Origin: Craspedostauros australis
Taxonomy: Eukaryota > Bacillariophyta > Bacillariophyceae > Mastogloiales > Achnanthaceae
Reading direction: 5' to 3'
NCBI GenBank assembly: GCA_026770025.1
Contig: JAMXDE010000066.1
Location: forward strand, 1 to 64,000
DNA: 64,000 nucleotides
A program made the position numbers and the translations under genes. Within the stretch, counting starts at the first letter, position 1, and each line of letters starts with the position of its first letter. Shown here piece by piece: positions 1,214 through 53,768 of the stretch. The notes beneath the pieces are model-generated. The model was given only the letters and a program-made list of their open reading frames with translations. It ran no database searches and was not told where the DNA came from.

Positions 1214-2204
1214 AAGCTTCAAGGAACATGACAGACGACGTAGGATGATGGAGGGAGTTGCAATTTTCGGGGCGAGGTTGGTGATGGCGCCATTTGTTGA
1301 TTGGTATCTTTCATCGAGTCCCCAGTCACGGATTACTGACAACTCCATCGACTCCCACAACTTTGCCGCATGCGTTCACAAAATACGATCGGGCACTGTG
1401 CCATGCATGGACGTGGTCGATCGGGACGGCTCGTACTCGCATATGCTCGATGATAGTGCCGATACGCATCAAAGTATTGCTTGCGTTTTGTTGCTGTAGA
1501 CTGGCTCAGATCAGCCTACATTGGTGCATCCATCCGTCCGAGAGGCATTGAGGTTGCAGGCTATGCCATGCTCATTCGCATGCATTCACCTCCACCATTC
1601 TCAAACCTCCACATCCAAAATCATGTGTGAACACTCTTAGGAATGTGAGATCGCGATTCTCAAGCTTGGTTCAGTACGATAAATCCGCTTAGAAGCTGCC
1701 ATGCTGATATGGGTATGGGTATCCAACCATTCAGGTCTTTGCGGAGGCTTCAGGAGCAGATCAAGGGCGTTGATACACCTAATGAGCGCCCCCTGGATAC
1801 AACACAGTTTGATGGACGTCCTGAGATTGATGATTCCAATGGGGATTTGTTCAGATATGGTTCATGTTGGCAGTTCCTGGATGGTGTCACGTGAAGGCAA
1901 AGTTTGAAGGAGCCGGTATTCGAAGATGCAAATGCAGCAAATAACCACATGGAAAGTGTCCGGGAGAGGTCCAAGGATAGCTCAAGATGATTTCATTCCT
2001 CCAAATTGATCAGTGCAGTGCAGATATAGGCCGGTTTGACCCACAGTGGCGTTCGACGATCGGTGTCATCGTGTGTACGAGGAACATGAAGGTGTCAACC
2101 CTTACGAAAGTAAAGAAAGCGTACAAACCCACGGAATATGCCGATGGAAAGGCCTTGGATGGGTCCCAATCGGTTGCATGCCTTCGGACTGTGTCATTCC
2201 CATG
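1214..2204. other. spacer between LINE relic and satellite
   Basis: No gene or RNA recognised. Frames on both strands are short. The last 30-40 bases before 2205 (gcatgaccaaattggaccgg) already resemble the monomer boundary of the satellite to the right, suggesting a decayed edge monomer. Confidence 0.45.
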
Positions 2205-5200
2205 CATGACCAAATTGGACCGGAGTGACCCTAAATATACATTGGCGACCTATAACACTCGGAGCGTGCCCATCGGGGGACCATACTATGGCCCACTATT
2301 GTTGGTTTGCTCGCGCATTGATCATTCCTATGTACATCTGGCCAGAACACGATATTCAGTGGCGCTGAATATTCACTGTCATATGAATCACCAAATTTGA
2401 CCGGAGGCACGCTTAAATATGCATTGGCGACCTATAACCAGTCGGAACGCACCCATGGGGGACCATACCATGGCCCACCATCGTTGGTTTGCTCGCGCAT
2501 TGATCATTCCTATGTACATCTGGCCAGAACACGATATTCAGTGGCGCTGAATATTCTACTTCATGTGTGTGACGCAATTTGACCGGAGGATCCCTTAAAT
2601 ATGCAATGACAGCTATAACCACTCGGAACGCACCATGGGGACCATACCATGGCCCACCATCGTTGGTTTGCCCGCGCATTGACCATTCCTATGCACTTCT
2701 GTCCAGAACACGATATTCAGTGGTGCTGAATATTCTACTTCATGTGTGTGACGCAATTTGACCGGAGGATCCCTTAAATATGCAATGACAGCCTATAACA
2801 ACTTGGAACGCACCCATTGGGGACCATACCATGGCCTACCATCGTTGGTTTGCTCGCGCATTGATCATTCCTATGCACTTCTGTCCAGAACACGATATTC
2901 AGTGGCGCTGAATATTCTACTTCATATGTATCACCAAATTTGACGGAGAGACCCTTAAATATGCAATGACGGCCTATAACCACTTGGAACGCACCCAACA
3001 GGGGCCATACACGGCCCACCATCGTTGGTTTGCTTGCGCATTGACCATTCCTATGCACTTCTGGCCAGAACACGATATTCAGTGTTGCTGAATATTCACT
3101 GTCATATGAATCACCAAAATTGACCGCAGAACCCCTTAAATATGCAATGACGGCCTATAACAACTCGGAACGCACCCATTGGGGACCATACCATGGCCCA
3201 CCATCGTTGGTTTGCTCGCGCATTGACATTCCTATGTACATCTATCCAGAACACGATATTCAGTGGCGCTGAATATTCTACTTCATGTGTGTGACGCAAT
3301 TTGACCGCAGAACCCCTAAATACGTAATGGCGGTCTATAACCACTCGAGAACGCACCCATCGGGGACCATAACATGGCCCACCATCGTTGGTTTGCTCGC
3401 GCATTGATCATTCCTATGCACTTCTGTCCAGAACACGATATTCAGTGGCGCTGAATATTCACTGTCATATGTATCACCAAATTTGACCGGAGGATCCTGT
3501 ATTACGTAATTACGACCTATAACCACTCGGAACGCACCCATCGGGAACCATACCATGGCCCACCATCGTTGGTTTGCTCGCGCATTGATCATTTGTATGT
3601 ACATCTGGCCAGAACACGATATACATTGCCTCTGAATATTCACTGTCATATGAATCACCAAATTGGACGGAGTGACCCCTAAATATGTAATGATGCTCTA
3701 TAACCACTCGGAACGCACCCATCGGGGACCATAACATGGCCCACCATCGTTGGTTTGCTCGCGCATTGACCATTCCTATGTACATCTAGCCAGAACACGA
3801 TATTCAGTGGTGCTGAATATTCAACTTCATATGAATCACCAAATATGACCGGAGTGACCCTTAAATACGTAATAGCGCTCAATAACCACTTGGAACGCAC
3901 CCATCGGGGACCATACCATGGCCCACTATCGTTGGTTTGCTCGCGCATTGATCATTTGTATGTACATCTGGCCAGAACACGATATTCAGTGGTGCTGAAT
4001 ATTCAACTTCATATGAATCACCAAATTGGACGGAGTGACCCCTAAATATGCAATGACGGTCTATAACCACTTGGAACGCACCCATCGGGGACCATACCAT
4101 GGCCCACCATCGTTGGTTTGCTCGCGCATTGATCATTTGTATGTACATCTGGCCAGAACACGATATTCAGTGGTGCTGAATATTCAACTTCATATGTATC
4201 ACCAAATTGGACGGAGTGACCCCTAAATACGTAATGGCAACCTATAACCACTTGGAACGCACCCATGGGGGACCATACCATGGCCCACCATCGTTGGTTT
4301 GCTCGCGCATTGACCATTCCTATGTACATCTGGCCAGAACACGATATTCAGTGGCGCTGAATATTCACTGTCATATGAATCAACAAATATGACCGGAGGA
4401 TCCCTTAAATATGCAATGATGCTCTATAACCACTCGGAACGCACCCATCGGGGACCATACCATGGCCCACCATCGTTGGTTTGCTCGCGCATTGATCATT
4501 TGTATGTACATCTGGCCAGAACACGATATACATTGCCTCTGAATATTCACTGTCATATGAATCACCAAATTGGACGGAGTGACCCCTAAATATGTAATGA
4601 TGCTCTATAACCACTCGGAACGCACCCATCGGGACCATAACATGGCCCACCATCGTTGGTTTGCTCGCGCATTGACCATTCCTATGTACATCTAGCCAGA
4701 ACACGATATTCAGTGGTGCTGAATATTCAACTTCATATGAATCACCAAATATGACCGGAGTGACCCTTAAATACGTAATAGCGCTCAATAACCACTTGGA
4801 ACGCACCCATCGGGGACCATACCATGGCCCACTATCGTTGGTTTGCTCGCGCATTGATCATTTGTATGTACATCTGGCCAGAACACGATATTCAGTGGTG
4901 CTGAATATTCAACTTCATATGAATCACCAAATTGGACGGAGTGACCCCTAAATATGCAATGACGGTCTATAACCACTTGGAACGCACCCATCGGGGACCA
5001 TACCATGGCCCACCATCGTTGGTTTGCTCGCGCATTGATCATTTGTATGTACATCTGGCCAGAACACGATATTCAGTGGTGCTGAATATTCAACTTCATA
5101 TGTATCACCAAATTGGACGGAGTGACCCCTAAATACGTAATGGCAACCTATAACCACTTGGAACGCACCCATGGGGGACCATACCATGGCCCACCATCGT

Positions 5201-7390: not shown

Positions 7391-10300
7391 TCATTCGAAT
7401 GTTCTCGATGTGTCAAGGTACGACTTCTCATGTTCACGTTGCAAGTCGGCCTTGATGTTCTTGGTGAATCCGTCGCTTGTGTTTTGCTCGGATTTGACGA
7501 AAATGATCTCGATGGTTTTGTTGATTACCATGTTCCTCACGTAATGATGGCGCACGTCGATGTGCCGTGATCGTTGGGATGTCGATGGGTTCTTGGCGAT
7601 GAAGATCGCTCCGATGTTGTCCACACGGACCTTAATCGGTGTCTTCACTGGGACGCCCACACTTTCGAGTAGCTGCACGACGAAGAAGATCTCCTTTGCC
7701 GCTTCAGAAAGGGCAACGTATTCTGCTTCCGATGAGCTGAGTGTGACGGCCTTCTGTGCCTTGGATCGCCAAAGGATCGGCGCCTTGCACAGGTATAGGA
7801 TGAACCCTCCTACGCTGATTCTCGTGTTCTTGTCTCCTGCGTATTCGCTATCGCAGAAGAGCTCCATGTCCCAGCCGTCGTCGTCTGGACGCGCTGGATG
7901 GATCTTCAATCCATACTCCTTCGTATCGATCACATACTTTATGATCCGATACATCTCCTTCATTGCGGCCTTGGTGGGCCCGATCAATACCTTGGAGAGT
8001 TCCCTCACAGGGTTCGCGATATCTGGTCGCGAGTGCTTGATGAGGAAGAGTAGCATACCGACGCCTCGGCGGTACTCGGCATGTTCTTCCGGTCCAACTT
8101 TCTGCAGTCCGTTATCTTCGGACGGTCGTACGATGATTTGACCCGGGGTTCCCGGTGTCCCATAGCGTTGCATCTTCTCAACCTTGGTTCCGAATTCTTC
8201 AATGAGGTGTCAGATGAGATGTGGTTGACGCAATGTTGCTCTAGTCTTGTTGTGGTTCAACTCGATGTTGCAGCTAAGGTAGTCTCCGAGTCCGTGCTCG
8301 ATTGTTACCTTGAATTTGCTGCCTTGGATGTCCTTCAGGAATGTCTCCAGTGCCTTGGAGTCTCCGCAACAGAAGCAATCGTCCACGTAGATGGCCACGA
8401 TCATACTTCCTTCGTTCGTCTTCCTGTAGAACAGGCACGGGTCTGCTGCGCTCTGTTCGAAGTTGATATTCTTGAGGGTCGATACCAACATCTTGAACCA
8501 TTGCCTGGCGCTCTGCACAAGTCCGTAGATTGGCTTGTGTAGGGTCAGGGCTTTGTCTGCTTGATGATCCATCCCATTGGGACAGTTCATGTAGATCTCC
8601 TCGTCGAGGTCTCCGTGTAGGAATGCCGTTACGACATCGACGAGTGCGCAGTCCATCTTCTTGATCAGCATGATCACCATCATGACCCGATAGGTCACGT
8701 CATGGATGACAGGTGAGTAATGCTCTTGAAAGTCTACTCCTGCGATTTGTGAGTAGCCACATGCAACGAGCCGCGCTCGATGTGTGCCGTCACGCTTCAG
8801 CTTGAAGACCCATTTGCATTTGCAGCATCTGCGGCCGCGTGGGATGGCGTCTCGTTTGATCTTGCTGTATACCTTGCGTGTATCCATGGAGTCGAACTCC
8901 TTCTTGATGGCTGCTCGATATCCCTTTCGATGGATGGGATCTGGGTGATTGAAGGCTCCATTGAATGTCATTGGTTCGATGTGCTTCCTTGACTCTCCGT
9001 TCTGGTCCTGCATCGACAGTCCAATGTCGATCGCTGGTGTCTCGGTAATGATTGCATTCATCCCGTATAGACCTGTTGTGCTATGATGGGTGATCTCGAT
9101 CTCTTCTTCTTCGTCTACGATTTCCTCATCATCTGTGGTTTCGTTGTTATCACTCGTTTTGTTGTTTGATTCGTCAGCTATCTCATCGCTGAGTTCATCA
9201 CTGTTTTCGTTGGATGATGATTCGCTCTCGTAATCTTCCTCCTTTCGACCTCGTTCGTTGAAGTCTGCGAGCTCACGCAGAGCTCTGGGAATACTCTTCC
9301 CTGCAGCTGACGTGGGATGAGCTTCTCCCTTCCTGCCTTGTGCTTCGTGACGTCGGATCCTCTCCTTTCTGTCTGTGTCACGCTTGCTTGGTTTGCTTGG
9401 TGGAGATCTGTATGGTGTACCATGTGTAGACCTCGCTGGTGTGTTCGGAGGGGTGACGCCTGTATCATCATCGGCTTCGTCGCCGGATGGTAGGATCTCG
9501 TCATCCTCATGATTGGATTCGCTCCGATCTTCCTCGTCGTTGTGGACTAGTTGAGTCACTACTCCGTCGTCCTCGTCATCCTCATCGTCCCTGTCCGATA
9601 GGATGTAGTACCTGTTGCTGTCAGCGAAAGATACTCTCTTCGCTTCCGATGTTTGACGCGTTGCCGTCCTTGGCGTTGCTCCCTTCTGTCCGATGGTTGT
9701 GAAGCCGTCTGCGTCAGTTGTTCCTGTTTCGTTGGATATGTTCGATGCTGGCGCCCAGCCACGGAACTGTCCGTATGATTGGTTGAGCCACTTGATGTCG
9801 CGTGAGCAGATCAGTGACTTGGTCGAGGGTCTGTACATGTTGTAGACCCCTGATGCGTGTTGGTGTGCATATCCGATGAACACCATCTCTTCTCCTCTAT
9901 TCTTGAGCTTGGCGGTAATCCCGCCGTAGGTAGTCTTCACAACACCCACCTCTCCGAACGTGCGGAGTGCATCCGCATATGGTGGATCGTTGCCAAAGAA
10001 TTGTCGATGTGGTGATTCCTTTTGATTCTTCGCTACGGTGATGTTGGCGATGGCGGTGGCAGTGCTAGCAGCTGCTGCCCACAGGCCATGCGTATACTCT
10101 TCGTCGAGCTGTGCTCCGTTGAGCATGGAGCGGATCTTGGTGTAGAGGTACGCGAACTTGCGTTCCACTCTGCCGTTCTGTTGCGGCGTGTTCGATGCCG
10201 TGAATTCGAATCTCACGTTGAGTCCTGCATCAATGAGAATATCCTGTGTGGTTTTGTTCTCTCTGCTGTTGTCACCTCGGAAGATGATCTGTTGGTCACC

Positions 10301-13300
10301 AGTCTGTGACTTGATCGTTTGGATGAATCGTTTGATGTATCCTGGTTGATCACTCTTGTTCTTGAGAAAGAAACTCCAGCAGTGATCCGTGCAGTCGTCC
10401 ACGATCAGGGTCCAGTAGCGTTTATCTCCGAAGCTTATGTGTTTAGTGTAACTAATGTCAATGAAGAGCCGTTCGCCGCGGCGAGTCGCTCTCGGAATGG
10501 TTGCCTTCGGAATGTTCTTCACTCTTGCGTTCGCGACCGCGCAGTCGCGACATACCGGCATCTCGCCGATAATCTTCCATCCGTATTGGGCGGCTGTTCG
10601 CTTCATGGTTTCGAGTGGCGCGTGGCCGAGCATTCGATGCAAGTTCACCGCGATGATCTCCTTGGATGGGTTCTTGACGATGGCTGTGCAAGCCTTGTCG
10701 TTGTTCGTTGGCATGATGGGATGCATCTGCACTCCCGTGATGAATCCGTTCGATGTGGGGAAGACTCGATCGAATACGATCTTCGTTCCGGATCCGTTGA
10801 TGATGTCCATCAGAATGCCGTTGCTACCAAGCTGGTAACCGTTGTACAGAGCCTTGTTCGTGGAGAAAAGGTTCACCGCCATTTTCGGTGTGTACTTCAC
10901 GTCATCGAGCCGGATGATGTGGTCAGTGTTGTCTTGTTGCTTGACCTTCAAGCGAATGGATCCCATTTTGGGAGAGTCCAGCTTCGTGCTGTCTCCCACT
11001 TGGACGAATGACTTGATGTGCCGCACATTGAAGAGAGCGGCGTCTGAATTGACGATGTGACACGAAGCTCCACTGTCGGCGAGCCAGGTGTCCTTGTTGA
11101 CCTTGTCCTTGTGCTTGGTGCTCAGCTCGTGGAGCTGCTCCACGGCTGCCGCAGCTATCTCGTCGTCGAAGCTGCCTTCATCGTCGTCTTCGTGAACTCC
11201 ATCTTCGTTGTATGGATTGTGATCTTCATCGTCGTCCATGTTGTTGGGTAGTTGTGCGTAGTCCGATGGAATCGTGTTGCTTCGGTGTGATCCTGTGGCT
11301 GGATCGTATGGGTGGACGCGTGATCGCTCTCGCAAGAGTACACGCATGCATCCTCCAAGGATGTAGTGCAGATCCGTCTCTGGGATCGTCTCCGTGTTGT
11401 CCGCTTCCAATATGCGGTTGATGACGACCGAATTGGTAAGGATCTCTTCGATTGATCTGAAGTTCTCGGATAGGATGGATCCCATCATGTTCACCCATAT
11501 CGGTCTGAGCACTCCTTGTACGTGTCCTGGGAAGAGGTTCGTTCCTGCTTCCATTACGGCATCGAAGATGAGTTGCTTCTGGATCACCAATGCTGTTTCT
11601 GTTGCATATGGGACGGTGTCATGACGATGGAGGTAGTTGGACTCGTAGGGATTCTCAATTGGTGGAAAGTCGATGTCTCTTGGATAGACGACGCGCCCGT
11701 TTGGGTTGAAGCTGTCGTCTGGATGATTGCCGTCCTCGGATTCGTCGCTGTCATCTTCGTCGAAGATGCCCGATCTGTTGTTCCCCGCTGCTGGAGGAGG
11801 CGGCGCCGCTGCGCGGTTCGTTTCGCCTTGGCCTTGATTGATGAAGGTTCCCGTTCTCTCGTATCTCCCAGCTTGAGGAGGCGGCGCTGCGCCGCGGTTC
11901 GCCTCGTTGTCTTCATCTGCGCCGTCCTCGTTGGTGTCGTCGTCGTCGTCGCTCATGGCCTCTTCGATGTCACTATCGTTGGCCTCGTCGTCCATCTCAG
12001 CTTCGTCGCCGTATGAACCGATCAGGTCGTGCGCGTTGAAGCAGCATTCGTAGCTCACTTCGCGTCTTGGATCCACCTCGTGGATGATTGGCTCCTCGCT
12101 GAGCCACTCTGCGACGATCTCATCGTCCTGTACTTCGTCGTCACTTCCGACGCACTCGAAGTTATCGAAGAAGGAGTCTTCGATGTAGTCGTCGGACACC
12201 AACATGCAGAGCGGCATGTCCTTCGCAGAGAGTACCATCTCGTGCCCGCTCTTGTCGTGTCCTTCCGTAGCCGCGTTGGCTTGTTCGTTGGCCTTCTTGT
12301 TCTCGTTGAACTTCTTCTTTCGGCACTCCGCCTCGCAATGTCCGAAAATGCCACAGTAGTTGCACTTCCCGTTGAAGCCGCTTCCCTTGTTGCGATTGTT
12401 GTTGCGCTTTCCGTTCATCTTGTTGTTGTTGTTGTTGTTTTTCTTGTTGTTCGATTTCTTGCGTTCTGGACAATCGGCGGATCTATGACCATACACGCCA
12501 CAGTTGTGACAAGTACCCTTGAAGTTACCGGTGCTTGTGAAGCCGGTGTCGTTGCTCTTCGTGTTACTGTCTTGGAAGTCGTCGACGTATGCCTTGCCTC
12601 CTCTGTGAGTGGCGTATGCAGTACGGAGTACTCCTCTGATCGTGTTGATGGTGACCAGTTCCGGATTGAACGTGAGTTGATGTTGGAAGTTCACGATGTG
12701 GGTTCTGTACTCGTTGCTCACCGTGCTGAGGATTTGCATGATCATTTCCTCTTCCGTGATCTCGTACTTGACATCGTGGAGACGCGATCGTAGACTCTCG
12801 AGTTGCGTGATGTAGATGTCGGGGTCCGAGTCTCTCTTCATCTTTTCGTTGTTGAATTGGCGCTTGAGTTTGATCTTCGTCACCGCGTCGGATGGTCGGA
12901 ACTTCTCCGCGAGAACGTTCCACGCTGCGTGTGCGTCTCCTTCGGGGTAGTCGTCGGAGATGCACTGGTTGATGTACTGGATGGCTTGCTTGCCTTTTCC
13001 TTTCTCTGCATCCATCATGAGGATCAGATCGCTGAAGCAGTCGCATCCCAGCTTGTAGATTTCTTCCATCGCTTCCTTGGCTTCTCCGGCGGCTGCCGCG
13101 ATCTCGCTCACTGTTGGCACTTTGGTCTTGCCCAACATCACGTCTCTCGTCTTCTGTGCACGAGCGTATGCCTTCGCTTGGGACTCCCATGCGCTGTAGT
13201 CTTCCTGTTCACTGCTGAACATTGGCGCCTTGATGCGTCGCTTGTTCATGTTGGCTGATGTCGCCATGTTGATTCGTTGTTTCGTTGTTGGTGCGCTCGC

Positions 13301-13672
13301 GCCCTTGATTTCCGTCGGTTTCTGTGTTAGCGATTCTTCGATTTTCGCTCGTAGTTGCGCGGAGATTGTTTTCGTCACAAATTCTCCTCCTGGTGGTGTC
13401 TCACTTTTCCCACTCTGTTTGGCTGTGCGAATACTCTCCGTCACACCAGTCTCCTCTTGCTTGTTCGCCTTGAGAATGCTCTTCTCCTCGCGATGTTGTC
13501 TTGCAGACCGTTCTTCTTCGGTCTCGTCGATTGCGCTTGCGTCTTCGCCTGATAGAACAGTAGCCGCTGCTACTTCCTTCTCTTGTCGTGGTGGAGTCTC
13601 ACTCGCACCTTCTTCTTGCTTGATAGTCGGGTTGGACAGAGGGATGTCTCTCAATTCCTCTTCCTCGCTCAT
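7391..13672 (-). CDS. gag-pol coding region of copia element A1 (fossil)
   Basis: Roughly 2,080 codons. From the N-terminus: a charged gag with two CCHC zinc knuckles (CHNCGVYGHRSADC and CNYCGIFGHCEAEC, around residues 390-455); an acidic Asn/Asp/Glu-rich linker; the aspartic protease motif DSGASCH near residue 867; an integrase HHCC finger (HRMLGH...CRDC) near 1000-1035; the integrase core with NTPQQNGRVERKF; a second acidic, Ser/Asp-rich linker; reverse transcriptase with KCKWVFKLKRDG and the active-site box YVDDC; and RNase H with LSSSEAEYVALSEA. Domain order and motifs are seen directly; function as a Ty1/copia polyprotein is family knowledge. It has about one break and is treated as a fossil. 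Confidence 0.9.
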
Positions 13673-16775: not shown

Positions 16776-16950
16776 CAGCAAGACACGGGAATTTCGCTGA
16801 AACTCGATGCCGTTTGCGTTCGACCACATGGACTAATCCCCCAATGCCCCAAACGAAATCTGGGTGGACTCAATGGACCACCATTGAATTTGTAGTTTAA
16901 CGTATTTAACGCCTTTTGGTTTGAATACCGAACACCTCCCAACGAACACA

Positions 16951-17110
16951 AGTTCGATGAAAGTACCACCAGTTCGATGAAAGTACCATCACTTCGATGA
17001 AAGTACCACCAGTTCGATGAAAGTACCACCTGTTCGATGAAAGTACCACCAGTTCGATGAAAGTACCACCAGTTCGATGAAACTACGACCAGTTCGATGA
17101 AAGTACCTTA
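16951..17110. repeat. 20-bp minisatellite, 8 units (left subterminal)
   Basis: Eight units of agttcgatgaaagtaccacc with one or two changes each. The same core, ttcgatgaaagta, forms the array at 21106-21328 in the same orientation. Confidence 0.93.
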
Positions 17111-17576
17111 GTCCGACAAAGGTCCTGCGAGTCCAATGAAAGCGGACACTCTGCAACGCGCGCCACAACGGTTCAAGAAACCAACTCGTGTCCAAACAGC
17201 CATTCTGTTGCAACAAGACCCAATGACAAAAACAAGAGCCCGAAACCCCGTGCCAATCTGTGTCACTCCGCATGACAGAGGAAGAACTCAGCAATCAGCC
17301 AACCAATTGGCACACCAACATTCACCAACAAGAGGAAGCAAAGGCAGCAGGGAATTTGGAGTGTTCCAGACAGAATTGCAGTGCAGCTGGAAAGAGCGTA
17401 GCCTGTGGCGTGGGATAATGGTGAACGTGTGATGATCGGCAGACGCGACGGGTGTGCGTTGTGTGTGCACTCTGACTGTCTCAGCAGACGCAGCGGGCAG
17501 GAGAATTTGCCGCCGCTCCGTCCGTCATCAGACCGTCGACCAACGCGACTCAAAACGTCGAAATGTCCACGCGACA

Positions 17577-17955
17577 TTCCATGGACACGGAGATTTCGCA
17601 TCGACCTCCAAGGCTAGTGTATCAATGTAGACCACCTGTATCACACGGGAAAAGTACAAGCCACATCATACATGTTTATCACAATTGTAGCATTGTGACA
17701 TTAATAAGTTCCTATCAACACACATTATCTAATGAAGGGATAAATGCCTACTTCAGTTGTAGATATGTGCATCATCCATCTGTTTGCTCCAATTCTGTAC
17801 ATCGTGGATCGTATTCTGACCAAAGCTTCATAGGAAAGGATAACAGATTAAACTTTAACAAGAATAGCGCATCCCAAGCATTCCAATGGGTATACTGCCA
17901 GCTAGCAAGTGTATTTATCCATCTGGAAGAGATGCTGATATCCAAATCTATGAAC
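17577..17955. repeat. left arm of internal inverted repeat
   Basis: Pairs with 20530-20920 in reverse orientation at roughly 75-80 percent by eye: for example gagatttcgcatcgacctcc here against ggaggtcgatgtgaaatctc there, and ttccaatgggtatactgcc here against ctagtatacccattggaa-like sequence there. Adjoins further diverged repeat units up to 18112. Confidence 0.8.
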
Positions 17956-18112
17956 CTCGTCATACTCAGTGCTACGCTCGACGCTGCACAATCTTCTGCA
18001 TGTCTACGCATTCCTCAGGCCATTTTGTGAAATCCGACCGGCGGCACCACTCCAATCACACTCTAAAGAGTACGGCCATGGAGTTTGAAGTCCTTGATTT
18101 GCCTGGAAGGGA

Positions 18113-18875
18113 TGTTGGCAAGTTCCGCACACGGATGGCCTTGGCATTGCTGACGATGGTGTTGGTTGTTACAATACTCTCGTTAGTTCATTACGTTGCT
18201 ACTCCAATACTCTCGGTATCTCTTCGATGCTCTTGAAATCTCTTGTCTACCCAATGCTCTCAGTGGTTCGTCCATCCAACTATGAGTTGGCATGTGAGAT
18301 GCTCTCTTGCTGTTACTCATATTCTCTCTCTATGTTGATATTGCGTGTTAGTACCACGCATGATAGCGTGTATTCGACGCAATTTTGATCTTCCTCCTTC
18401 TACTAGTCCACTACTTCACATGTAGTAGTCAGTGCCATGCATTCTCTGCACCTTGCACCTTTCACAATGGCCATGATACTTCAATCATAAGATTCCGAAC
18501 CAGCTGTCAGTTCGAATGGCATGGACTTTGGAGTCAATGTCAGTCATCGTCATTCTATGGATGTGCTGATTCCATATTCCATTGATGATGCTGGAGGAGT
18601 ATCAGGTTGGTGTCATTTGAGGTTTAGTTGGGAAACATACCGATCCAGTATCGATATCATAGGTTTCTGGATGAGTGGGCAGATCGAACATCTGATACTC
18701 TCAGATTTCCTGTCTCATGTCTGTCCGACATTGGGCACAAAAGTGGCGTGCATAATTTTGGTTCGTGATTCACACAACCGTTGATGGCCAATGATGCAAA
18801 TGTCAATGCTGCTCAGCGTGCGTGGGGTGAAAGAACAATGGGTGAGCGATGCACATACACATATACATCCCAACA
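18113..18875 (-). mobile_element. solo LTR of copia family A (diverged)
   Basis: Runs on the plus strand from tgttggcaag to tacatcccaaca, matching the LTR of A1 in layout: the tatgagt motif, ctctctctatgttgatattgcg, aggtttagttggga, and ggtgagcgatgcacatac near the end. It is clearly more diverged than the LTRs of A1 and A2. Flanks are similar 5-mers (aggga left, cggga right), and the two flanks together match undisturbed repeat units at 19137-19150 and 19690-19705, so the insertion site can be read. No internal sequence remains, as expected after LTR-LTR recombination. Older than the A1 insertion. Confidence 0.75.
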
Positions 18876-19819
18876 ACGGGATCTAATTCTACTGATGCTG
18901 ATGTCCTGCAGTACTGAAACATACGCATCATGCTGCTCAGCGTCCTGAGCAGATGTGCACAGAAAATGTCAATCATATTCAATGTAGCACCTTGGCAAGT
19001 CCAAACACACTCCATGGAGGGCAGTCATGGAGTTTGAAGCTGCACATCCGCTAGCAAGGCACATCAACATGCCCTCAGGTGAACCTCATGTCACAACGCT
19101 GCTGAGCGCTGCTTGATGTCAGCATCAGTAGAATTAGATCTCTTCCAAATGGACCAAGGACTTCGAACTCCACAGCCATAGCCATTGAAGTCTACTTGGA
19201 GTGTTCAGCAGTTGCATGTCTCAAGACAGCCGACCAAAGGCATAGATGTGTGGAATACTGCGCAAGGCAATGCCTACCGTAGAGATGCGTCCCAGGCAGT
19301 ACTGCATGATAACAGCATCTTTAAGACTGGATCCCATACAGATGAACCTTGCATTTCCACCACCATTTGTGTACTCTTCAGATTGCATGCGGAGTGACTG
19401 AAGTGTTTGTGTGGAGTATGATCGATGCTGTCTATGCACATATGCGCAGAACACTGTACAACGCGAGGCGTATCTTTCAGCACCACGTGATATGAGCATC
19501 CATGAAATTGGATCCCTTCCTGACGGATCTAGGGGCTTCCAACTCCATGCCCGTATTCTGTGATGTATGGTTGGAGTGGTTGTAGCGTTGGATCAGAATA
19601 CGATGGACAGTTCCTATGCGCAAATATCCAAATCACTGCCCAGTGCGACACGTACTGTTTAGTACTGCGTGATATCAGCATCTGTAGAATTAGATCCCTT
19701 CCAAATGGAGCTAAGACTTCAAACTCCATGACTGTACTCTTTGGAGCGTGTTTGAAGCTACGCAGTTGATCATATCTCTCAAAACAGCTTGCCAAATGCA
19801 TAGATATGCATAATGCAGT
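18876..19819. repeat. head-to-head array of about 185-bp diverged repeats (centre of foldback)
   Basis: The motif tctaattctactgatgctgat (18882) appears inverted at 19120-19140 as atgtcagcatcagtagaatta, and again in that second orientation at 19511 and 19693. Spacing between like landmarks is 181-193 bp. The switch in orientation is near 19.0 kb, next to a perfect hairpin (CTGCTCAG at 18933-18940, loop CGTC, CTGAGCAG at 18945-18952). Short frames here show no domain. Confidence 0.75.
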
Positions 19820-20156
19820 GGCCCGACGCATATGGAGAATAGCGTGGGAACAATGGCGGCTTCGAAACCATGACATGTTCAACGAAGCCGAGTCAGCCGA
19901 GCAGGAGATGATGGAAGCCATGCGCGACAGGTCGGAAGACCTGGCAAGCATGCTCCAAGCCGACAATGCCGTCCATAAGCGTGTGCTGGCAGTACGTCCA
20001 GGATGCGAGTCCGACGCTGCAAGCGTGGCGCTGTGGATGGAGCAGGCGGCGAGACTGCTGCGAACCAACCTAGCCACAGGCCCTCTGCTCAAGTGGATGC
20101 AAGTCCACTCGAAGACGGGGTTCCAATTGCACCGCAGGACCGAGCCCAACAAGTGA
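19820..20156 (+). CDS. C-terminal fragment of LINE ORF2 (partial)
   Basis: About 111 codons of element sequence ending in a natural stop at 20154-20156. An ATG upstream at 19806 belongs to the target duplication, so it is not the element's own start. The peptide has RRIWRIAWEQWRLRNHDMF at its beginning, a Glu/Met-rich middle (ESAEQEMMEAMRDRSEDL), then LWMEQAARLL and a basic end (HRRTEPNK). The WEQW...RN block resembles the region after the reverse transcriptase in some protist LINE proteins, but no catalytic motif is present in this fragment. The frame is intact across the piece, suggesting a fairly recent insertion. Assignment rests mainly on the structural hallmarks and on the second copy at 641-1196. 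Confidence 0.65.
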
Positions 20157-20318
20157 GAACGAAATCGACACAAGCAAACAAGTGCTGAGCACCCATACTT
20201 CAGATTCCGTACCCCCTCCAGGTGTTCCACCTGGAGTTGAAAGGAGGCGGAGAAAAGCATCGCCGACGCAGTCGCAGCATAAGACCGACTAATCTATGAG
20301 TTATTTATTTATTTATTT
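19820..20318 (+). mobile_element. 5'-truncated LINE with perfect 15-bp target duplication
   Basis: The sequence tatgcataatgcagt occurs at 19805-19819 and again at 20319-20333. Between them lie a C-terminal coding piece, a short 3' UTR containing gttgaaaggaggcggag, and an (ATTT)n tail just before the right duplication. Target duplication, 5' truncation and simple tail are hallmarks of target-primed reverse transcription. It inserted into a repeat unit in the right arm of the DNA transposon and is younger than it. A more decayed relative lies at 641-1196. Confidence 0.85.
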
Positions 20319-20333
20319 ATGCATAATGCAGTA

Positions 20334-20920
20334 CAGAGTCAAGCGTACCACACAGTATGCCGAGGTTCATAGATTTGGATACCAGGATTCCTTCCAGACG
20401 GATCCAGATACTTGGAAACCACCCCCATACCCATTGAAGCACTTTCACTATGACGAGGTTGGTAGAATTGCAGATGTTGGATCTTTCATATGAAGGTTTG
20501 GTCAAAACCCTGCATACTGCGCAGAGTCGCCGTGCGGTATCATGTGATTTGATTGCGTAGAATGTGCAACATCTTCTAGATGGATCCAGTCACTCGCAAG
20601 CTGGTAGTATACCCATTGGAATGATTTCAATGTTCTGATCTTGTTTAGATGGAATATGTTTATACTTTTCAATGAAGACTTGGTCAGAATACGATCCACA
20701 ACGCACAGAATTGGAGCAAACAGGTGAATGATGCACATATCTACAACTATAGTAGGCATTCATTCCTTTCATTAGATGATGTATGTTCATATGTACTGGT
20801 TAATGTTGCCAGTATGACAAACATGTATGGTGTGGCTTGTACTTTCCCTGTGTGATACAGGTGGTCTACATTTATATTCTGGCCTTGGAGGTCGATGTGA
20901 AATCTCTGTGTTCATGAGAT
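20334..20920. repeat. right arm of internal inverted repeat and repeat units
   Basis: Reverse complement of 17577-18010, with gaggttcatagatttggatacc (20362) matching atccaaatctatgaacctcg (17940). At least two tandem units of about 190-200 bp are visible, marked by ggatcc/ggattcc near 20385 and 20583 and by tacccattg(g/a)a near 20429 and 20612. Confidence 0.78.
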
Positions 20921-21105
20921 GTCACTCACACGTTTTGTGCAACTGAGTGCTGTGAAAATCGACTGGTTGGTGGAATTCGGGACTCCAAAAGGGCTGGTTC
21001 GTGGATTTCCTCGTGAACCAACAGAATAACACGACTCACAGCTTCGCACAACATTGGTTGGTGGCGTTTCGACGAAAGTACGCACGCGCCAATGCTGGTC
21101 GCAAC

Positions 21106-21328
21106 CATTCGATGAAAGTAACACAGGTTCGATGAAACTAATGTCACTTCGATGAAAGTAACACCACTTCGATGAAAGTAATGTCACTTCGATGAAAGTA
21201 ACACCACTTCGATGAAAGTAACACCACTTCGATGAAAGTAACAGGACTTCGATGAAAGTAACACCACTTCGATGAAAGTAACACCACTTCGATGAAAGTA
21301 ACAGGACTTCGATGAAAGTAACAATACT
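21106..21328. repeat. 20-bp minisatellite, about 11 units (right subterminal)
   Basis: Units of acttcgatgaaagtaacacc, with variants ending taatgtc and taacagg. Same core and same strand orientation as the array at 16951-17110, so relative to the transposon ends the two arrays are direct, not inverted. Confidence 0.93.
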
Positions 21329-21490
21329 ACTGTTAACGTCTATAACGTCTAATTAACGTCGTGACACACGGGCTCGGTCTCCCCGTCCGACTCATTGGGG
21401 TTTTGACGTGGTTGTGAACGGGACCGGACTGATTGGAGTCTTGCGCTTGTGGTCTCCGCGAACTTTCGGCGAAATTCCCGTGTCTTGCAG

Positions 21491-26784: not shown

Positions 26785-29700
26785 TCACTTGTTGTGGTTG
26801 GGATCGGTGTTGCCCTTCCAAAACAATAGTGGTTGGATGAGGTCCCAGAAAACCGACCGTGGAAGGAATTTTGTGAGGATGTCGGCGATGTTCTGGTTTC
26901 CCTTGATCTTGATGAAGTACATCGTCCCAGCGGCGATGGCCGATCAGACTCGGTGGTAGGCCAGTGCGTTGTGTCTCTTGGATAGTACACTGGTTGGGAT
27001 GGTGGAGGATGTGACTACGCTCTGGTTGTCACCAAAGAGCCAGCTTGGGCCGTCCACAGGTATTCCCATTTCGCACAGCATCAGGCGGATGGACAGGATC
27101 TGTTCTGTCGCCAACCGTGCTGCCACGAACTCTGATCCGTAGGTGGCTGTCTCCACGGTGGACTGTCGCTTCGAGAACCATTCGATGGGTGTTTGGTTTA
27201 TGAGATGCACGATACCGGTTGCTGATTTCCCAGTCACCTTGCAGTGCATGAGATTTGCATCAACGAAAGTCGTGGTACGTACGGGTTTGCCTTTGGCTGT
27301 TGGTGCATCCGCTGGCAGCTCCTCTCGGTTGGGTCCGTACACAGAGTACATCCATTCGTGTTGTGGGATGTCGTAGTGTTCTTCATGGTTGGGGATTCCG
27401 GTTCGGAAGCGGATGGAGGCGTCTGGGTATTTGCGAAGGTACCCATAGATGCGCTTCACTCTGTCCATGTGTCCTGCTCTTGGTGATGCACGGAAACGGG
27501 AGAGAGTCATGACCGCCACATGTATGTCGATCCTTCCCAGAGACACACACCATTGGAGTGCTCCGATCAACGACATGTACTTGGTTCGATCGATCTCCCC
27601 GAGCTCAGGTGTCGTATCGAGCTCAGGACTGTCGTCCTTGTCCATGGGGCAGCTGGTCTTGTTGGGTGGTCCGTCGAACATCTGTTCGTAGTTCGTGAGC
27701 ATGCGTTTGATGTAGGAACGCGCGCTGATTTTCATTGTGTCGTCGCTGTCTCTTCCGAAGTCTGCTCCTAGATGGTAGGAGATGGGGCCGACACCCTTGA
27801 GCTTGTAACCATACTGTGAAGTGAGAGTGTCGAAGAAGGAGCGTGGGTCAGACATGACCGCCATGAGATCGTCCACGTATACACATACGTATTCCCAGTG
27901 CGGACCTGCATCACGCATCCATACATCAGGGTCAGACCTGCACTGCTGGAAGCCCATGTCTCGGAGAGTATCTGCCAGCGCTTCGTGGAAGCGAGCTCCG
28001 GATGTCCGAAGGCCGTAGAGCGCCTTGACAATCGTGAGCATGTGGCCTGCGTGCTCCCCGAACTCGTCACCGGCTACGAAGCAGATCTTCTCCTTCGTGT
28101 ATGCCTCCAGGTAGGCGTTTCCAATGTCGCCGACCATGGTCTTGAGTCCGTTCAGTTCGCCAGCGAGTAGGGCGATTCGGAGTGACTGCAAGCTGACAAC
28201 TCCGGCGTAGGAGGAGTCCTTGCATGGATCCGTCAGGTGGCCACCTGCCACACATCGTGCTCGGTGTCGGAGGTCGTGCTTGACTGCATAGACCCATTGC
28301 AATCGGATCTGTTGGTATCCGTCTGGAACGGTCTTGGTCTTGCCAAGCGATCGGAATGTCTCATATCCGAAGAGCTGTTCCATCTCGGTACGTTCCGCAT
28401 CCGTCCAGAGCGTGTTGCCGTTGCGTTTGTCGAGGCGCACGGCTTCTTGGTGATTGCGTGGTACCTGTACACCAAACTGGTAGATGGGTGCGTTGGTGTG
28501 CTTCTTGGCCTTGTTGATAGAGGTCTTGCGCTCCATTCGAGCCTGTCGGTCAGAGAGCTTCTTCAGCCGTTTCCATCCAGGCTGATCGAGCAATCCGTTC
28601 TTCCGGCCGTATGCCGCACATGATACAGGATCGTCTTGCAACATGGTGGAGAGTGGTTCGGACGTTGTTGATCCGTCATCCCATTTTACAATGACATTGT
28701 ATCGGGACCCCTTGTAGGTCTTGGCGTTCGGAGTGAGAGGTCCTTCGTGGCCGATGATGCCTTGGAATCCCCATACTCCGTCTTCGTCGTCTTCGTTGCG
28801 TTCGAGCTGCTGTTCGATGATGTCGGACAGCTGGACGTAGGAGATGAGTTCGTTGGTGGCTCCATCGTCGAAGGCGAGCAACATCTTGATTCGCTGATGG
28901 TTCGCTGCATCCGCGTCATTGACGCGTTGGATGACTTCGGCCTTGACTCTCTGCCCGTCGCGATCGTACAGGAAGGTCTTGCCGATGAGATCCTCTGGTG
29001 TGAATCGAGGGATGGAGACTCTTGCCATGTCCGTCGTTCCAGGATCGGACTCCGCAGAAGCGAAAAGAACGGCGTCTCCGAGGGAATGGACAACTGGTTG
29101 CATTCCATCAGGCACTGGGACGTCGTCGTCAAGCTCCCCATCATCAGGTGGGTTCGTGTCCGAGCCGTCTTCCTCCCCAACGTCGGCCAGGGGAAAGTCG
29201 ACGCGCAGGTTGCGGGAGCCGTGCTCGTCGGCTGCACGGATCGAGGATCGAGGGAGGAGCTGTTGGGTGTCATCGTCCAACACCCAGAAGGTGAGTTCGT
29301 CACCCTTGTGGAGACAGGGTCCGGCCCATCTCCCCTTCCGCTCCTTGGACTGGCTGGGAAAGCCAGGTTTCTCAACGCGGTAGTACACCGGCTGCCACCA
29401 GCGGTAGGCAAGGAACTTGCTCACATCGGGACGGTGTCCGTAGGCTGCCTGCATCGGCGTGACGTTACCCGCCGTGCGCTGAGCCAAGTGGTTGAATAGC
29501 ACAATGACATACATGGTGCATATGAGCCAGAAGCGAGCAGGTGTGCCCGTTCTATCCATGATGCCGTTTGTCATGCGCTTGATGTCTTGGATACGCCTCT
29601 CTGCGGCGTTCTGGTGCTGGTGCTCCGGCTCGCTCTGATGGTCAGCGATGGAGTACTGTCGGAGGATGTCTTGCACCTTGAATCCGATCTCGGATTTCGC

Positions 29701-32175
29701 GTTGTCGGATATCAGGAGGTCAGGAGCTCCGTGACGCCGGATGAAGTCTTGGAGAGTGGAAGCGACTTGCTTCTCGGATGTCATGGGGAATCCTGCGGTG
29801 AAGCGAGAATCCACGGCCACGTACACTTGCATCATTGTGCTGCCACCATGTCCTGGCACACCATCGTCGTGTGCAGGTGTGTCAGAGAACAACGTGTCCA
29901 TGGCAACAGTCTCGTGGAGCCTGTCCACGTTCGCGGCAGGGAACCGGGTCTTGTAGTGCTTTCGCATGGTGAACCGCTCGGAGGTGCGGTACCATTGGGA
30001 CGTGCACTTGAGAGTGTCTTGGACTCTTCTGGCCGGGATCCATCCGAAGTACGGACGGAGGGCCTCATAGTCGATCGTCGGCTTCGCACGAGTGATGGCG
30101 CTTTGCTGTGGGGCACCGGTCTCACTGGTGAACACTTCGATGGAGTCTGGTGACTGGACGCCGTCGTCTGGGACACCATCGGAGATCCCATCCAGCAAAG
30201 TGAACTCGTGATCAAGAGTGGATGGGTCCCACTCTTCGTCGGCAGTGAAGTCCACGTGAGGGTACGTGTCAATCTCCTTGCGTGTGGGAGGCCTCATGTC
30301 CATGTAGGACAGGCCCTGTCGGATGGAGAGAGGTATCACATGCCCATCAGGCACGACGATTGTCTGTCGCCCTCCAGGGAGTTCGCAAGGACGCTCGTTG
30401 ACATCGAGACCGAATGCACCGAGCTGATTCGTCGAGTGAATCGTCTTGCCCTTTCCATAGAGGGCGTATTGGTGGAACTTCGCGATGATAGGTCCCTCGG
30501 TGGACATGACGAGTCCAGCGACTGTTCCGATGTCCAGGTTGACGATTGCGGTGTCTCCAATTCCGCTGATGTCGGCGGTATGGTTGGTACGGCTGATGAT
30601 AGTCACATCATCGCCTGCCAATCCTCCATTCGCTCCGCTGTCGATCAGGGAACCGGACTTCGCAACATCGGTCTTGTTGAAGCTGTATTGCAGGACTGTG
30701 GCCTGAACAGCACGGTAGACCTTGCCCTGGATGATCACTTCGTCAGAAGTGTTGGTGTTGGTCGTGGCATTGGCCAGCATGCGCTTGATGGCATCGCCAG
30801 GGATTTCGTCAGAACCGGCGCTGCCGGAGGTCGAGGTGGACTTGGCTTGCCCACCACCCCCATTGCCAGTGGCGGATGTCTTGTTGGCCTGCCTGTTCGA
30901 TGTATCCCTGGTGTACTTGGGGTCCCAAGTACCCTTGGACTGCATGTGGGCCTTCTTCTGATCCCATGTCATTTGCTTCCATTCGTTGTCTGGGATTCGC
31001 TTGTTCGTGCTCTTGTTCTTGGATTGGTTGGTCTTGTTCTCGTTGGTGCTTGCGTCCTTGCTTGTGTTGTTGACCCTACGCTTGGCCTTGTTGCGTGGGA
31101 CGCGGAGATCGTTGCGCTGTGCGGATCTGCGAACTACGCCAAGGAAGGCATCGAAGTCCAGCCTGAAGTTGGTCTTTCCTGTTGCCAACGCCAAGTTGCT
31201 CTGGAGAGCATCGGCGTCGTCGAGGGAACGAAAGAGATCGGCGTCAGGGGTGATGGCCTCCTTGAGCCACTGGAGCTTCCAGTCCTCAGAGACAGGTGCA
31301 TCTTGGATCTCTTCGAGGTCGTTGATCTTGCTGAGCCAGCTGTTCACGAAGGCTTCGCGGCTGCCGTTCCAGGAGTGGTTCAGCTTGAGGTTTCGGATCT
31401 CCTCCTGGATCAGCTGGGCCTTGTTGGCTGCAGCTACTCCGGTTGCATACTCTTCACGGAGCATGGTATACACCCCATGACCGTTCTCGTCATCGGCGTA
31501 TGCCTGGAGACAGTTGCGGCTCTTCGTGGTTCTGAGGCAGTGGGTCAAGACGTAGAAGAGGAAGGTGCGCTGCTTGTCGAACAGCTCAGACTCATCTTGG
31601 GTCGGGAGGTACTCGGGGTCCACGACGTTCTTCACACCGTGCGCTGCAGCGGTGGCTCGAAGACGTCGATCAAAGACCATGAACTGGTCATCGCTCTTCA
31701 GGATCGGATAGTCGCTGAGGTTCCGCTTGATGCCCTTGTCGAAGGCAGTGGCTCCATCAGAGACAGGTTCAGGTGGTGGTGGTGGTGTCACCATGGACGA
31801 CATGGTGGGTTCGGGTGTCGGCATGGAGGCATCCACGCGCTTCTTGAGTTCAGCTCTCATGAAGGTCTGGAGCCTCGCAGCGTTCAGGTCAAGCCAGACG
31901 GAGTCGCCGTCGCCAGCTTGCGCGTCATACCACATTGGGAGTGCGAGGATCTTGCGAATGTGCAACGCAGTCAATCGGCATGAGTATGGGTCTCCCGAGG
32001 TGGGAGTGATGTCGCGATGAAGACCGTCGAGGTCTTCCTTGGTGAGGAAGGTGAGGTCGTCAACGTTCTCCACCGCTGCGTCGATGATAACGCGGCGATG
32101 GTCGGAGTCGTCGGAGATACCCACGGCCTTGAGGACGTGGTTCAGGATGGTGATGGGGTTGTTGGGTTCTGTCAT
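26785..32175 (-). CDS. gag-pol coding region of copia element C (fossil)
   Basis: About 1,797 codons in element sense. The N-terminal gag shares with element G the block IKR N(L/I)SDYP...RRLRATAAAHG and TTKSR, near residues 170-240. No CCHC knuckle is visible in gag; a Gly/Asn/Thr-rich, basic linker follows instead. Then protease with IDSGANGGLAG near residue 515, integrase with HHCC-less lead-in, DNAKSE and NAAERRIQDIKR in the core, a GKGR-type capping block (KGRWAGPCLHKGD), reverse transcriptase with LQWVYAVKHDLRHRARCVAGG and CVYVDDLMAVM, and RNase H with WFSKRQSTVETATYGSEFVAA. Domain order is copia. About one break. It is a distinct lineage from A and D, closer to B and G by primer site and LTR type. 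Confidence 0.88.
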
Positions 32176-32412
32176 CTTGTTCGGTTCGTCACGGAGAAGC
32201 GGATACGCTGTGCTCAGTGTGTTCGTTTGTTCGGTTCGTCACGGAGAAGCGGATACGCTGTGCTCGGTGTGTTCGGGTGCGCTGCCTTGGGAGGCTCTTG
32301 TTGTTGTTCGGTTCTTGCTTCACGTCGTCACGTGATGCAATTGGTTCGGTGCTGATGGGATCAGCTCGGTGGGTTGGAGGTGTTTTCACGCAGTCAGGTC
32401 AGGACGTAGTGC

Positions 32413-36263: not shown

Positions 36264-37859
36264 TCAGCCAGGTGCGACGGACCGCACAAGGTTCACCAAC
36301 GTTGCACGATCCATGTATGAATCCACTTGCGCAGGACCCTCACTTTCATCCACGACCTTGTACAAATCCATCATGGACATGGCACTGTACTTGTCATCAA
36401 CTTCATTGCTTGCCGCTCCCCCACTGCAGATGCCTTGGATCTCTCCCATCAGTTGGGGATGTAGAATCAGCTTGCTGAAATCTGGATGAGTGAAGAAGTT
36501 CTGTTTATTCGCAGCTGCCAGCCTCATTGCTGCATCTTTCAACACCACACAGTTGTGTTGATTGGCGAATATCAACGCATCTACCATGGTGTCCTCTGTG
36601 AGATGAGTGCGGGCCAACTCTGCTTCAAGAACAAGCTTGAGTCGCCAGAAGCCGAACTCGTTGGCCACAAGGATCAGCTGTTGTAGATCGTCCTGTCCAT
36701 CGGCGGTGGAAGTTGGCTGGTCAGCGCCATCATCATCGTCATGAGCGCCATCGCGGGTATCAGTATCGTTGTCCGGAGCGCTGTGATCGAAGGATATCTC
36801 ACCTGTGTAGATGCATTCGAGGACACGTTGGACATGTTTGGGTTGATGGTTGGGAAGAGAGATGATCCTGCGGGGTGGAGCAGTGGCAGAATCAGTGCCG
36901 TCATCAGTGCCGTCATCGACATGCTGATGTTGGATTCCCGAGTTGATCAATGTCTGAATGGACGGAACAGTGACCATGAGGACTCCGGAGTTTGCTTTGA
37001 TTGGCTGTTGTTCGTCGCCTTGTCCGCACAGGAAGGTGATGTCTGCCTTGGCCTCAGACCGAACAGCGCTGCGACGATCTTGGTCGATGCTGATGTTGGT
37101 TGTTGTGTGGATTTTAGGATTGTTGTGCTTGGTTGGTGTTGTGATGGTGTTTGTGTGTCTTTGCTTGCGCACCTGCATCTCTGTTTGCAGCTGTGTCTGC
37201 GGTTGCAAGTTGCGTTGACTGAGATGACCGAGACGCTTCATGATTGATCTCATCAACTTGAACTGATTGTTCGCGATGATTAATTCGACGGGTGTTTTGT
37301 TGGCGTTGTTTTGGATGTCGATATTGACCTTGGTTGATTCGATGAGGTACTCGACGCATTCAGACTTGCCGTTGACGCATGCTTTATGAAGGGGAGTGTT
37401 GCCAAAGTTGGTTTTGCAGTTGACATCGGCGTTGGTTGATTCGATGAGGTACTTCACACATTCAGACTTGTCGTAGATGCATGCTATATGAAGGGGAGTG
37501 TCGCCATAGTTGTTTTTTACCGTGTTGACATCACGTCCTTCGTTCTGCTCCTTCCATTCCCTCACCACTGACAGATCACCTGCCTTGGCAGCTCCAAGGA
37601 GTTGTTCGTCTGAGACATTCGGCATGTTGGTCGTTGGTTGTTGAGCTCTTCGCAGAAAACGCATTGCTGGATGATTGCTCAATGTGTTCACGGTACGAGT
37701 CGGTCTTATGATGAAGATACTGTCTGTGTTTTTCGATAGTATGAGACCCAACCTGCTGCAAGGAACAGGAAGGTCGATGTCTGTCGTTGTCTTGTTCGCA
37801 CGTTCTGTTTCTCTGTTCCATGATCGCACTCTGGGACACTCGGCAAATGTATCAACCAC
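36264..37859 (-). CDS. ankyrin-repeat and BTB/POZ domain protein
   Basis: A 531-codon frame. Residues 81-210 hold about three to four ankyrin repeats, two of them clear (GDTPLHIACIYDKSECVKYLIE and GNTPLHKACVNGKSECVEYLIE). Residues 211-265 are a Gln/Thr/Asn-rich linker. Residues 270-450 form a BTB/POZ fold: ADITFLCG opens it, IKANSGVLM replaces the usual HK.vLa segment, VLECIYTGEISFD is the typical central helix-strand, and LILVANEFGFWRLKLVLEAELARTHLTEDTMVDALIFANQHNCVVLKDAAMRLAAAN is the classic BTB-BACK-like end. An Asp-rich loop (359-392) is inserted in the domain. The likely start is Met79 (37625) or Met66 (37664), because the ankyrin part begins there and residues 1-65 look like leader translation. 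Such proteins often bind Cullin-3 and recruit substrates through the repeats; that role is inferred. It looks intact, the clearest host gene in the window. Confidence 0.8.
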   Translation of the reverse strand: MVDTFAECPRVRSWNRETERANKTTTDIDLPVPCSRLGLILSKNTDSIFIIRPTRTVNTLSNHPAMRFLRRAQQPTTNMPNVSDEQLLGAAKAGDLSVVREWKEQNEGRDVNTVKNNYGDTPLHIACIYDKSECVKYLIESTNADVNCKTNFGNTPLHKACVNGKSECVEYLIESTKVNIDIQNNANKTPVELIIANNQFKLMRSIMKRLGHLSQRNLQPQTQLQTEMQVRKQRHTNTITTPTKHNNPKIHTTTNISIDQDRRSAVRSEAKADITFLCGQGDEQQPIKANSGVLMVTVPSIQTLINSGIQHQHVDDGTDDGTDSATAPPRRIISLPNHQPKHVQRVLECIYTGEISFDHSAPDNDTDTRDGAHDDDDGADQPTSTADGQDDLQQLILVANEFGFWRLKLVLEAELARTHLTEDTMVDALIFANQHNCVVLKDAAMRLAAANKQNFFTHPDFSKLILHPQLMGEIQGICSGGAASNEVDDKYSAMSMMDLYKVVDESEGPAQVDSYMDRATLVNLVRSVAPG

Positions 37860-53696: not shown

Positions 53697-53708
53697 CGTT
53701 TCGAAACG
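53697..53708 (+). other. palindromic primer-site region of element D
   Basis: CGTTTCGAAACG, a perfect 12-bp palindrome directly after the LTR. A3 has CGTTTATAAACG in the same position, and A1 a 10-bp version. It does not begin with TGG, so it does not pair with a tRNA 3' end. Confidence 0.5.
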
Positions 53709-53768
53709 TTTAGATTGAAATCCTACGTTTCACCCCGCACCATCAAGCCATCATCCACCATCATCATC

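Follow-up and report, generated by a model that had tools for sequence, protein, structure and literature searches.

A putative composite PHIS/Harbinger-type transposon with a nested MULE-type foldback element in the diatom Craspedostauros australis

The window, a stretch of 64,000 nucleotides from Craspedostauros australis (contig JAMXDE010000066.1 of assembly GCA_026770025.1, positions 1 to 64,000), carries an insert of 4,709 bp at 16779-21487. The reading we favour, with a probability of roughly 0.92, is that the insert is a composite non-autonomous DNA transposon, in which a miniature inverted-repeat transposable element (MITE) forms a shell around a nested foldback element of the Mutator-like (MULE) type, the whole being moved by the CAAG ends of the shell. 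The insert is bounded by 19-bp perfect inverted ends, CAAGACACGGGAATTTCGC at 16779-16797 (plus strand, exact) and its complement at 21469-21487 (minus strand), and by a 3-bp CAG duplication (16776-16778 and 21488-21490). Extended beyond 19 bp, the inverted match covers 31 bp at 90% identity. A search of the 90 contigs of the genome (74.8 Mb), allowing up to two mismatches, gave 62 occurrences of the end pattern and none of its reversed control. The base-exact borders proposed in the first-pass annotation are thus confirmed, as are the many family copies expected there, 25 of which were recovered as paired elements.

Genome searches with the 180-bp flanks (best 40 of 48 candidates scored for the left flank, best 40 of 49 for the right) matched further copies of the host retroelement at 93-98%. 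At 38 of the 39 other copies listed, the right-flank match adjoins the left one with an overlap of exactly three bases; a left-flank match at C21 has no partner among the right-flank matches listed. One of these empty sites was read directly, and includes GATAACGCAGCATTG with a single CAG. The three-base overlap and the single CAG show that the duplication is CAG and not GCAGC, which had been offered as an alternative. The empty sites also establish that the insert was placed precisely in a host sequence that is otherwise uninterrupted. This host is classed as a long terminal repeat (LTR) retroelement by the match of its downstream frame, about 1.6 kb further on, to the integrase core PF00665 (E 1.5e-4, below the curated cut-off); the upstream frame matched no Pfam family. 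Of the earlier description of the host as a copia protease, the LTR-type assignment is weakly supported by this match, whereas the copia and protease labels found no family match and rest on frames read by eye.

Elements with CAAGRCACGGGAA ends form a family, here called the outer family, to which the shell belongs. Duplications were scored in 25 of 27 end pairs; L018 501-7437 and L020 501-6466 were set aside, the latter being an internal weak match with no duplication, and one-ended or endless loci (L026, L029-L034, L036-L043 and L047) fall outside the count. A matching 3-bp duplication was found in all 25 elements (17 CAG, 7 CTG and 1 TAG), as the comparison of duplication lengths suggested on first pass had sought to learn. 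The target is therefore CWG in 24 of the 25. PIF/Harbinger elements proper are defined by a TWA target duplication, which occurs in none of the 25. All start with CAAG, the pattern by which they were found, and no two have similar flanks. They fall into size classes of 0.6-1.4 kb, 3.5-4.9 kb and 6.4-7.6 kb. The 1.2-kb members L014-L017 consist of the shell without the foldback core, and L019 also has the shell without the core. At L018 a second right-type end (7437), also followed by CAG, lies 450 bp past the element's own right end and is probably the end of a neighbouring family member.

The large members L018 and L020 have the same ends as the window insert and CAG duplications, and the first 287 bases of the insert are 91% identical to L018. 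Both encode a transposase in two minus-strand pieces. Matches to DDE_Tnp_4 (PF13359) were above the curated cut-off in L018 (E 3.4e-14), L020 (2.9e-14) and L025 (8.6e-16), covering positions 1-157 of the 158 in the profile; a transposase-bearing relative that could name the superfamily, as had been hoped, was thus found. All 10 aligned transposases, two of them from other lineages, have D55, D131 and E163 unchanged, and by the motifs of the family we take these residues to be the probable catalytic triad. Among the best 150 of 356 candidates in a genome search with the L018-type transposase, 13 matches, L018 included, were 74-100% identical. The further 137 (34-51%) are PHIS-type transposases of other lineages in the same genome, for example L028 7922-8425. 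L030 and L031 gave identical matches in the transposase search and may be recent duplicates. The C-terminal piece, compared by sequence with solved structures, gave no convincing relative (two chance-level matches, E 1.7 and 2.5). The first accessory open reading frame (ORF) is conserved in 7 sequences of the outer family. The window copy itself contains no transposase, in agreement with the first reading of it: seven query stretches from L018 and L025 gave no tblastn match better than E 0.21. Since members that have these ends code for a DDE_Tnp_4 transposase, the shell is classed, by sequence, as a non-autonomous member of a Harbinger/PHIS-superfamily family. CACTA elements, whose ends start with CACTA, were considered for the 3-bp duplication and rejected, since the ends here do not start with CACTA and the transposase is DDE_Tnp_4.

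The accessible text on the NuwaI group of the PHIS superfamily (PMC4482050) describes CWG 3-bp duplications, a DDE transposase, a second ORF with a Myb/SANT domain and terminal repeats of 12-61 bp that usually begin with GGG, in a mainly animal group reported from 16 animal genomes. The outer family is like NuwaI in its CWG duplication, PHIS-type DDE transposase, accessory ORF and terminal repeat within 12-61 bp. It differs in ends that begin with CAAG and not GGG (the paper says "usually", so that this is not strictly defining), in its diatom host as against animal hosts, and in an accessory ORF with no match to Myb/SANT; 20-bp subterminal arrays are not mentioned for NuwaI in that text (PMC4482050). 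In target site the outer family appears nearest to NuwaI. Since it agrees with NuwaI in the duplication but not in the first bases, and its accessory ORF lacks a Myb match, it is provisionally filed as PHIS, NuwaI-like, and not as NuwaI. A literature search, with Repbase and most subscription papers outside it, found no PHIS element with a CWG duplication in a diatom. Harbinger-like elements are known in a diatom, the accessible text giving no target-site detail (PMC2806351). The Ping ORF1 protein has a Myb-like domain, and arrays are not given in the accessible part of that source (PMC9921582).

The shell carries a subterminal array at each end, both with a 20-bp period. The left one (16947-17107, plus strand) has 8.1 copies of the unit CACCAGTTCGATGAAAGTAC and the right one (21104-21323, plus strand) 11.1 copies in the same orientation, so that the repeat finder bears out the minisatellites noticed at both ends. 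When lags of 12-40 were compared, the best was 20 or 40 at 47 of the 48 ends of 24 outer-family elements (40 being a multiple of 20 and the largest lag; L046, at 572 bp, was too short and was left out), the exception being the left end of L021. The repeat finder placed a period-20 array in 28 of 29 sequences (the window and 28 loci, a set without L013, L015, L016, L021, L023, L031, L041-L043, L046 and L047). In L034, which has two end-like matches (1249 and 1415), the array lies 343 bp from the outer one. Array units vary by subfamily, for example TTCGATGAAAGTACCACCAG, AACAAACGTTGAAAGTACTC and GTTGAAACTAATGAAGAAAC, around a loose core YGAAASTA. This core has the same direction at both ends in all 13 elements without transposase that were counted, and in 13 coding loci it follows the transposase strand at every one of the 17 array ends. 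Polar arrays phased at 20 bp are present in all subfamilies with paired ends examined.

The arrays are likely a row of putative binding sites on one face of the helix, which would help the transposase find and pair the ends. A broader proposal, which we advance tentatively and at somewhat less than even odds, is that a diatom PHIS lineage has CWG as its target and that its ends are recognised by way of long polar arrays, made up of putative protein-binding sites phased at exactly 20 bp, about two helical turns, the phasing and not the unit sequence being the conserved signal. This is suggested by the period, the distance from the end and the strand relative to the transposase, all of which are maintained as the unit sequence changes from one subfamily to another. 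That the arrays are repeats of the terminal site is supported in part. In subfamilies 1 and 3 the unit matches the inner half of the terminal repeat at 10 of 14 positions at nine of ten ends (78-148 of 5,000 shuffles being as good) and at 9 of 14 at the tenth (532 of 5,000).

Several observations weigh against this proposal or against the composite reading as a whole. At the six ends of subfamilies 2 and 4 the unit agrees with the terminal repeat at only 7-8 of 14 positions (1,541-4,087 of 5,000 shuffles). The left array of L021 is almost lost, yet both ends and the duplication are kept; the loss may postdate insertion. The exact 19-bp end at L040 569 (C49:397468) is followed by 6.5 kb of sequence without a 20-bp array. 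Nothing else behind it matches the window element at length, and the end is probably a broken one. The accessory ORF gave no match to Myb/SANT or to any other DNA-binding domain in Pfam or the PDB, and the single TAG duplication, at L045 (375-1577), departs from CWG. The arrays could instead be passive satellites, grown by slippage and with no role in movement. We regard this as unlikely, if not negligibly so. In its favour, array copy number differs between copies, L021 has both ends and the duplication with its left array nearly gone, and in two of the four subfamilies the unit is only weakly like the terminal repeat. However, slippage would have to accommodate a lag of 20 or 40 as the best at 47 of 48 ends despite differing units, a period-20 array in every sequence of the repeat-finder set except L040, and a core strand that follows the transposase strand wherever the two were compared.

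Precedents exist for both the form and the supposed function of the arrays. In the Medicago PIF/Harbinger subfamily MtPH-A6-4, the accessible text describes 60-bp subterminal tandem repeats with a triplicated motif in 18 of 23 members (PMC2213677). That subfamily is like the outer family in its superfamily, in its subterminal repeats (about 20 bp per motif, by arithmetic) and in the nested insertions of its long copies. Its repeats lie at a single end, or at both ends facing opposite ways, whereas those of the outer family are at both ends, in the same orientation and in all paired-end subfamilies examined; as far as that text goes, its target duplication also differs (PMC2213677). In Galileo, of the P-element superfamily, transposase binding sites lie in tandem repeats near the ends (PMC3688188, accessible part). 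By analogy Galileo may serve as a functional precedent for the arrays of the outer family, unlike which it belongs to another transposase superfamily and has much longer terminal repeats (PMC3688188). If the phasing proposal is true, phased-array ends would tolerate any cargo, and this would explain composites such as the window insert.

The foldback core of the insert occupies 17545-21012. Its right terminus, GAGGAAATCCACGAACCAGCC, lies at 20992-21012 (minus strand), and its 55 left-terminal bases, absent in the window copy, are present in L013, L021, L022 and L023. It is flanked on the left by the duplication GTCGACCAAC (17535-17544; GTCAACCAAC in L021) and on the right by GTGAACCAAC (21013-21022). 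Repeat comparison supports the inverted, head-to-head repeats reported for the interior, with arms at 795-1152 and 4145-3794 in insert numbering (81%). Similar arms are found in the free inner element L050 (153-605 and 2420-1969, 82%). In L049 (C26:409300-413500), a relative of the inner element, the inverted arms extend over at least 837 bp at 99.6% and end in ACACAGGGGGG-type minisatellites, the true ends being beyond the locus.

The core occurs at many further sites in the genome. At the ten whose edges were viewed it has GAGGAAATTCAYKAACCAGCC-type ends, unrelated surroundings and no CAAG shell. Read by eye, seven of these ten have exact duplications of 9 bp, one has an exact duplication of 10 bp (C55), one is imperfect (C6) and one is unreadable (C25, where the left end was not captured). 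Target duplications of about 9 bp are usual in the Mutator/MULE superfamily. Allowing up to one mismatch, the genome has 88 occurrences of the GAGGAAATTCAYKAACCAGCC end pattern and none of its reversed control. MULE transposase matches (PF10551) lie 1,122-1,125 bp inside a GAGGAAATTCAYKAACCAGCC-type end in seven of nine cases (one of the ends having one mismatch); for the remaining two, at C12 and C5, no inner-type end is listed nearby. The end stretches of one candidate coding MULE element match the arms of the window core over 278-462 bp at 73-77% identity. Candidate coding MULE elements with the GAGGAAATTC ends of the inner element lie at C2:3703633-3708394, C4:2001332-2010711, C2:3323887-3330992 and C39:587575-598827. 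Because the core occurs alone with its own ends and 9-bp duplications, and because its family carries a MULE transposase, it is classed as a second transposon, of MULE type, nested in the shell. It resembles Mutator/Foldback elements such as Tm1 and Muta1 in its duplications of about 9 bp, its long imperfect inverted arms and the MULE transposase of its larger relatives. Unlike in those elements, the MULE likeness covers the nested core only, which has no transposase and has lost 55 bp at one end.

Two further inserts lie within the core. One, of 764 bp (18114-18877, between GGGAT copies at 18109-18113 and 18878-18882), is common to the sibling composites and absent from the free inner element L050. 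The other, at 19819-20320 (plus strand), is a 3' fragment of a retroelement resembling a long interspersed nuclear element (LINE), with a TTTA-rich tail; a duplication of 11-14 bp, GCATAATGCAG, lies on either side of it (19808-19818 and 20321-20331). It is absent from L021, L022, L023 and L041; L013 is uninformative, since a larger deletion spans that place. It is up to 99% identical to copies elsewhere in the genome, and 12 of the 39 other matches listed span at least 200 of the 521 bases searched. The frames of a longer relative in L049 matched no Pfam family, so that the LINE label rests on the tail, the duplication and frames read by eye. A Pack-type origin of the open frame at 19819-20320, by gene capture, was weighed and rejected, as the fragment is absent from siblings, has a duplication and a TTTA-rich tail, and recurs elsewhere.

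Shell and core are found together in five complete composites (the window copy, L013, L021, L022 and L023), which are 95-98% identical in pairwise comparison over aligned positions and lie at unrelated CWG sites; at least two more, L041 and L042, are partial. Five complete copies at unrelated sites imply at least four moves of the composite as a unit. A second composite of the CAAG family is represented by four copies of 4.57 kb (L009-L012, 97-99.5% identical), and one of its ends is also in L026. Its ends are 83-91% identical to those of the 1.38-kb L024, and its 3 kb of extra cargo has no Pfam match and frames that look retroelement-like by eye.

The history that would best account for these data begins with a MITE of the 1.2-kb type from the PHIS/Harbinger family, with 19-bp CAAG ends, CWG duplications and subterminal arrays phased at 20 bp. 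Into this MITE a foldback element of MULE type would have inserted, producing a duplication of about 10 bp; it would also have gained the 764-bp insert. The CAAG ends would then have taken the whole composite to new CWG sites. One composite would have entered a young LTR retroelement, that of the window, and afterwards lost 55 bp at the inner left end; this copy would also have received the LINE-like fragment, which is not found in siblings where that place is kept. The transposase of the 6.4-7.6-kb relatives presumably acts in trans on ends of the window type, and an element protein may bind the 20-bp arrays and draw the ends together.

Three further points count against this history. The 1.2-kb MITEs are an imperfect empty site for the inner element, since in the composites some 40 additional bases separate the right inner duplication from the shared TTTCGACGAAAG; this junction alignment did not include L019. 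The two copies of the inner duplication differ, GTCGACCAAC against GTGAACCAAC, with 9 of 10 positions agreeing in L021. Transposition itself is deduced here from the comparison of sequences.

Two other explanations fare much worse than a shell moved by its own ends. The first-pass annotation took the insert for a single undescribed foldback family, with the terminal repeats, the minisatellites and the head-to-head core as parts of one kind of element. All these parts do occur together in at least five copies, but the shell is found alone, lacking the core, in L014-L017 and L019, free copies of the core have their own ends and 9-bp duplications and no shell, and each of the two parts goes with a transposase from a different superfamily; we consider a single family very improbable and abandon that interpretation. 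It is just as hard to credit that the inner MULE ends move the composite, even with both inner ends kept in four siblings and MULE transposase genes present in the genome, as such movement would leave the shell behind, whereas the five complete composites have the same shell, bounded by CAAG ends and CWG duplications.

On the composite reading, what seemed to be a new foldback family resolves into two identifiable superfamilies. The insert would be a nest of known kinds of transposon, and what is new would be a CWG-targeting PHIS shell in a diatom, together with its phased arrays. The case thus places CWG-targeting PHIS elements in a diatom and illustrates how a nested element may turn into permanent cargo of a MITE. 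The arrays pose the question of how a Harbinger-type transposase recognises and pairs its ends with a terminal repeat of only about 19 bp. For annotation, a long "foldback" interior with minisatellite ends should be treated with caution, as it can be a nest of unrelated transposons.

Elsewhere in the genome, the silicon-transporter family PF03842 gave 88 matches, of which 28 have no stops and span nearly the whole profile (about 500 positions), for example C2:977655-979259, C2:984679-986283 and C61:24421-26025. The same family was above its cut-off in none of 14 control genomes, and its presence here marks the host as a diatom. The set looks like a large expansion, with a count that may include haplotype or assembly duplicates. 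In the window itself, retroelement makes up much of the 64 kb by eye, with long open frames of copia-type gag-pol appearance at 8210-13672, 26944-32238, 40318-44388 and 53676-59441. Amid these retroelements, a frame of 535 amino acids on the minus strand (36267-37871) encodes ankyrin repeats and a BTB domain (Pfam Ank_2, E 2.6e-29; BTB, E 3.1e-5).

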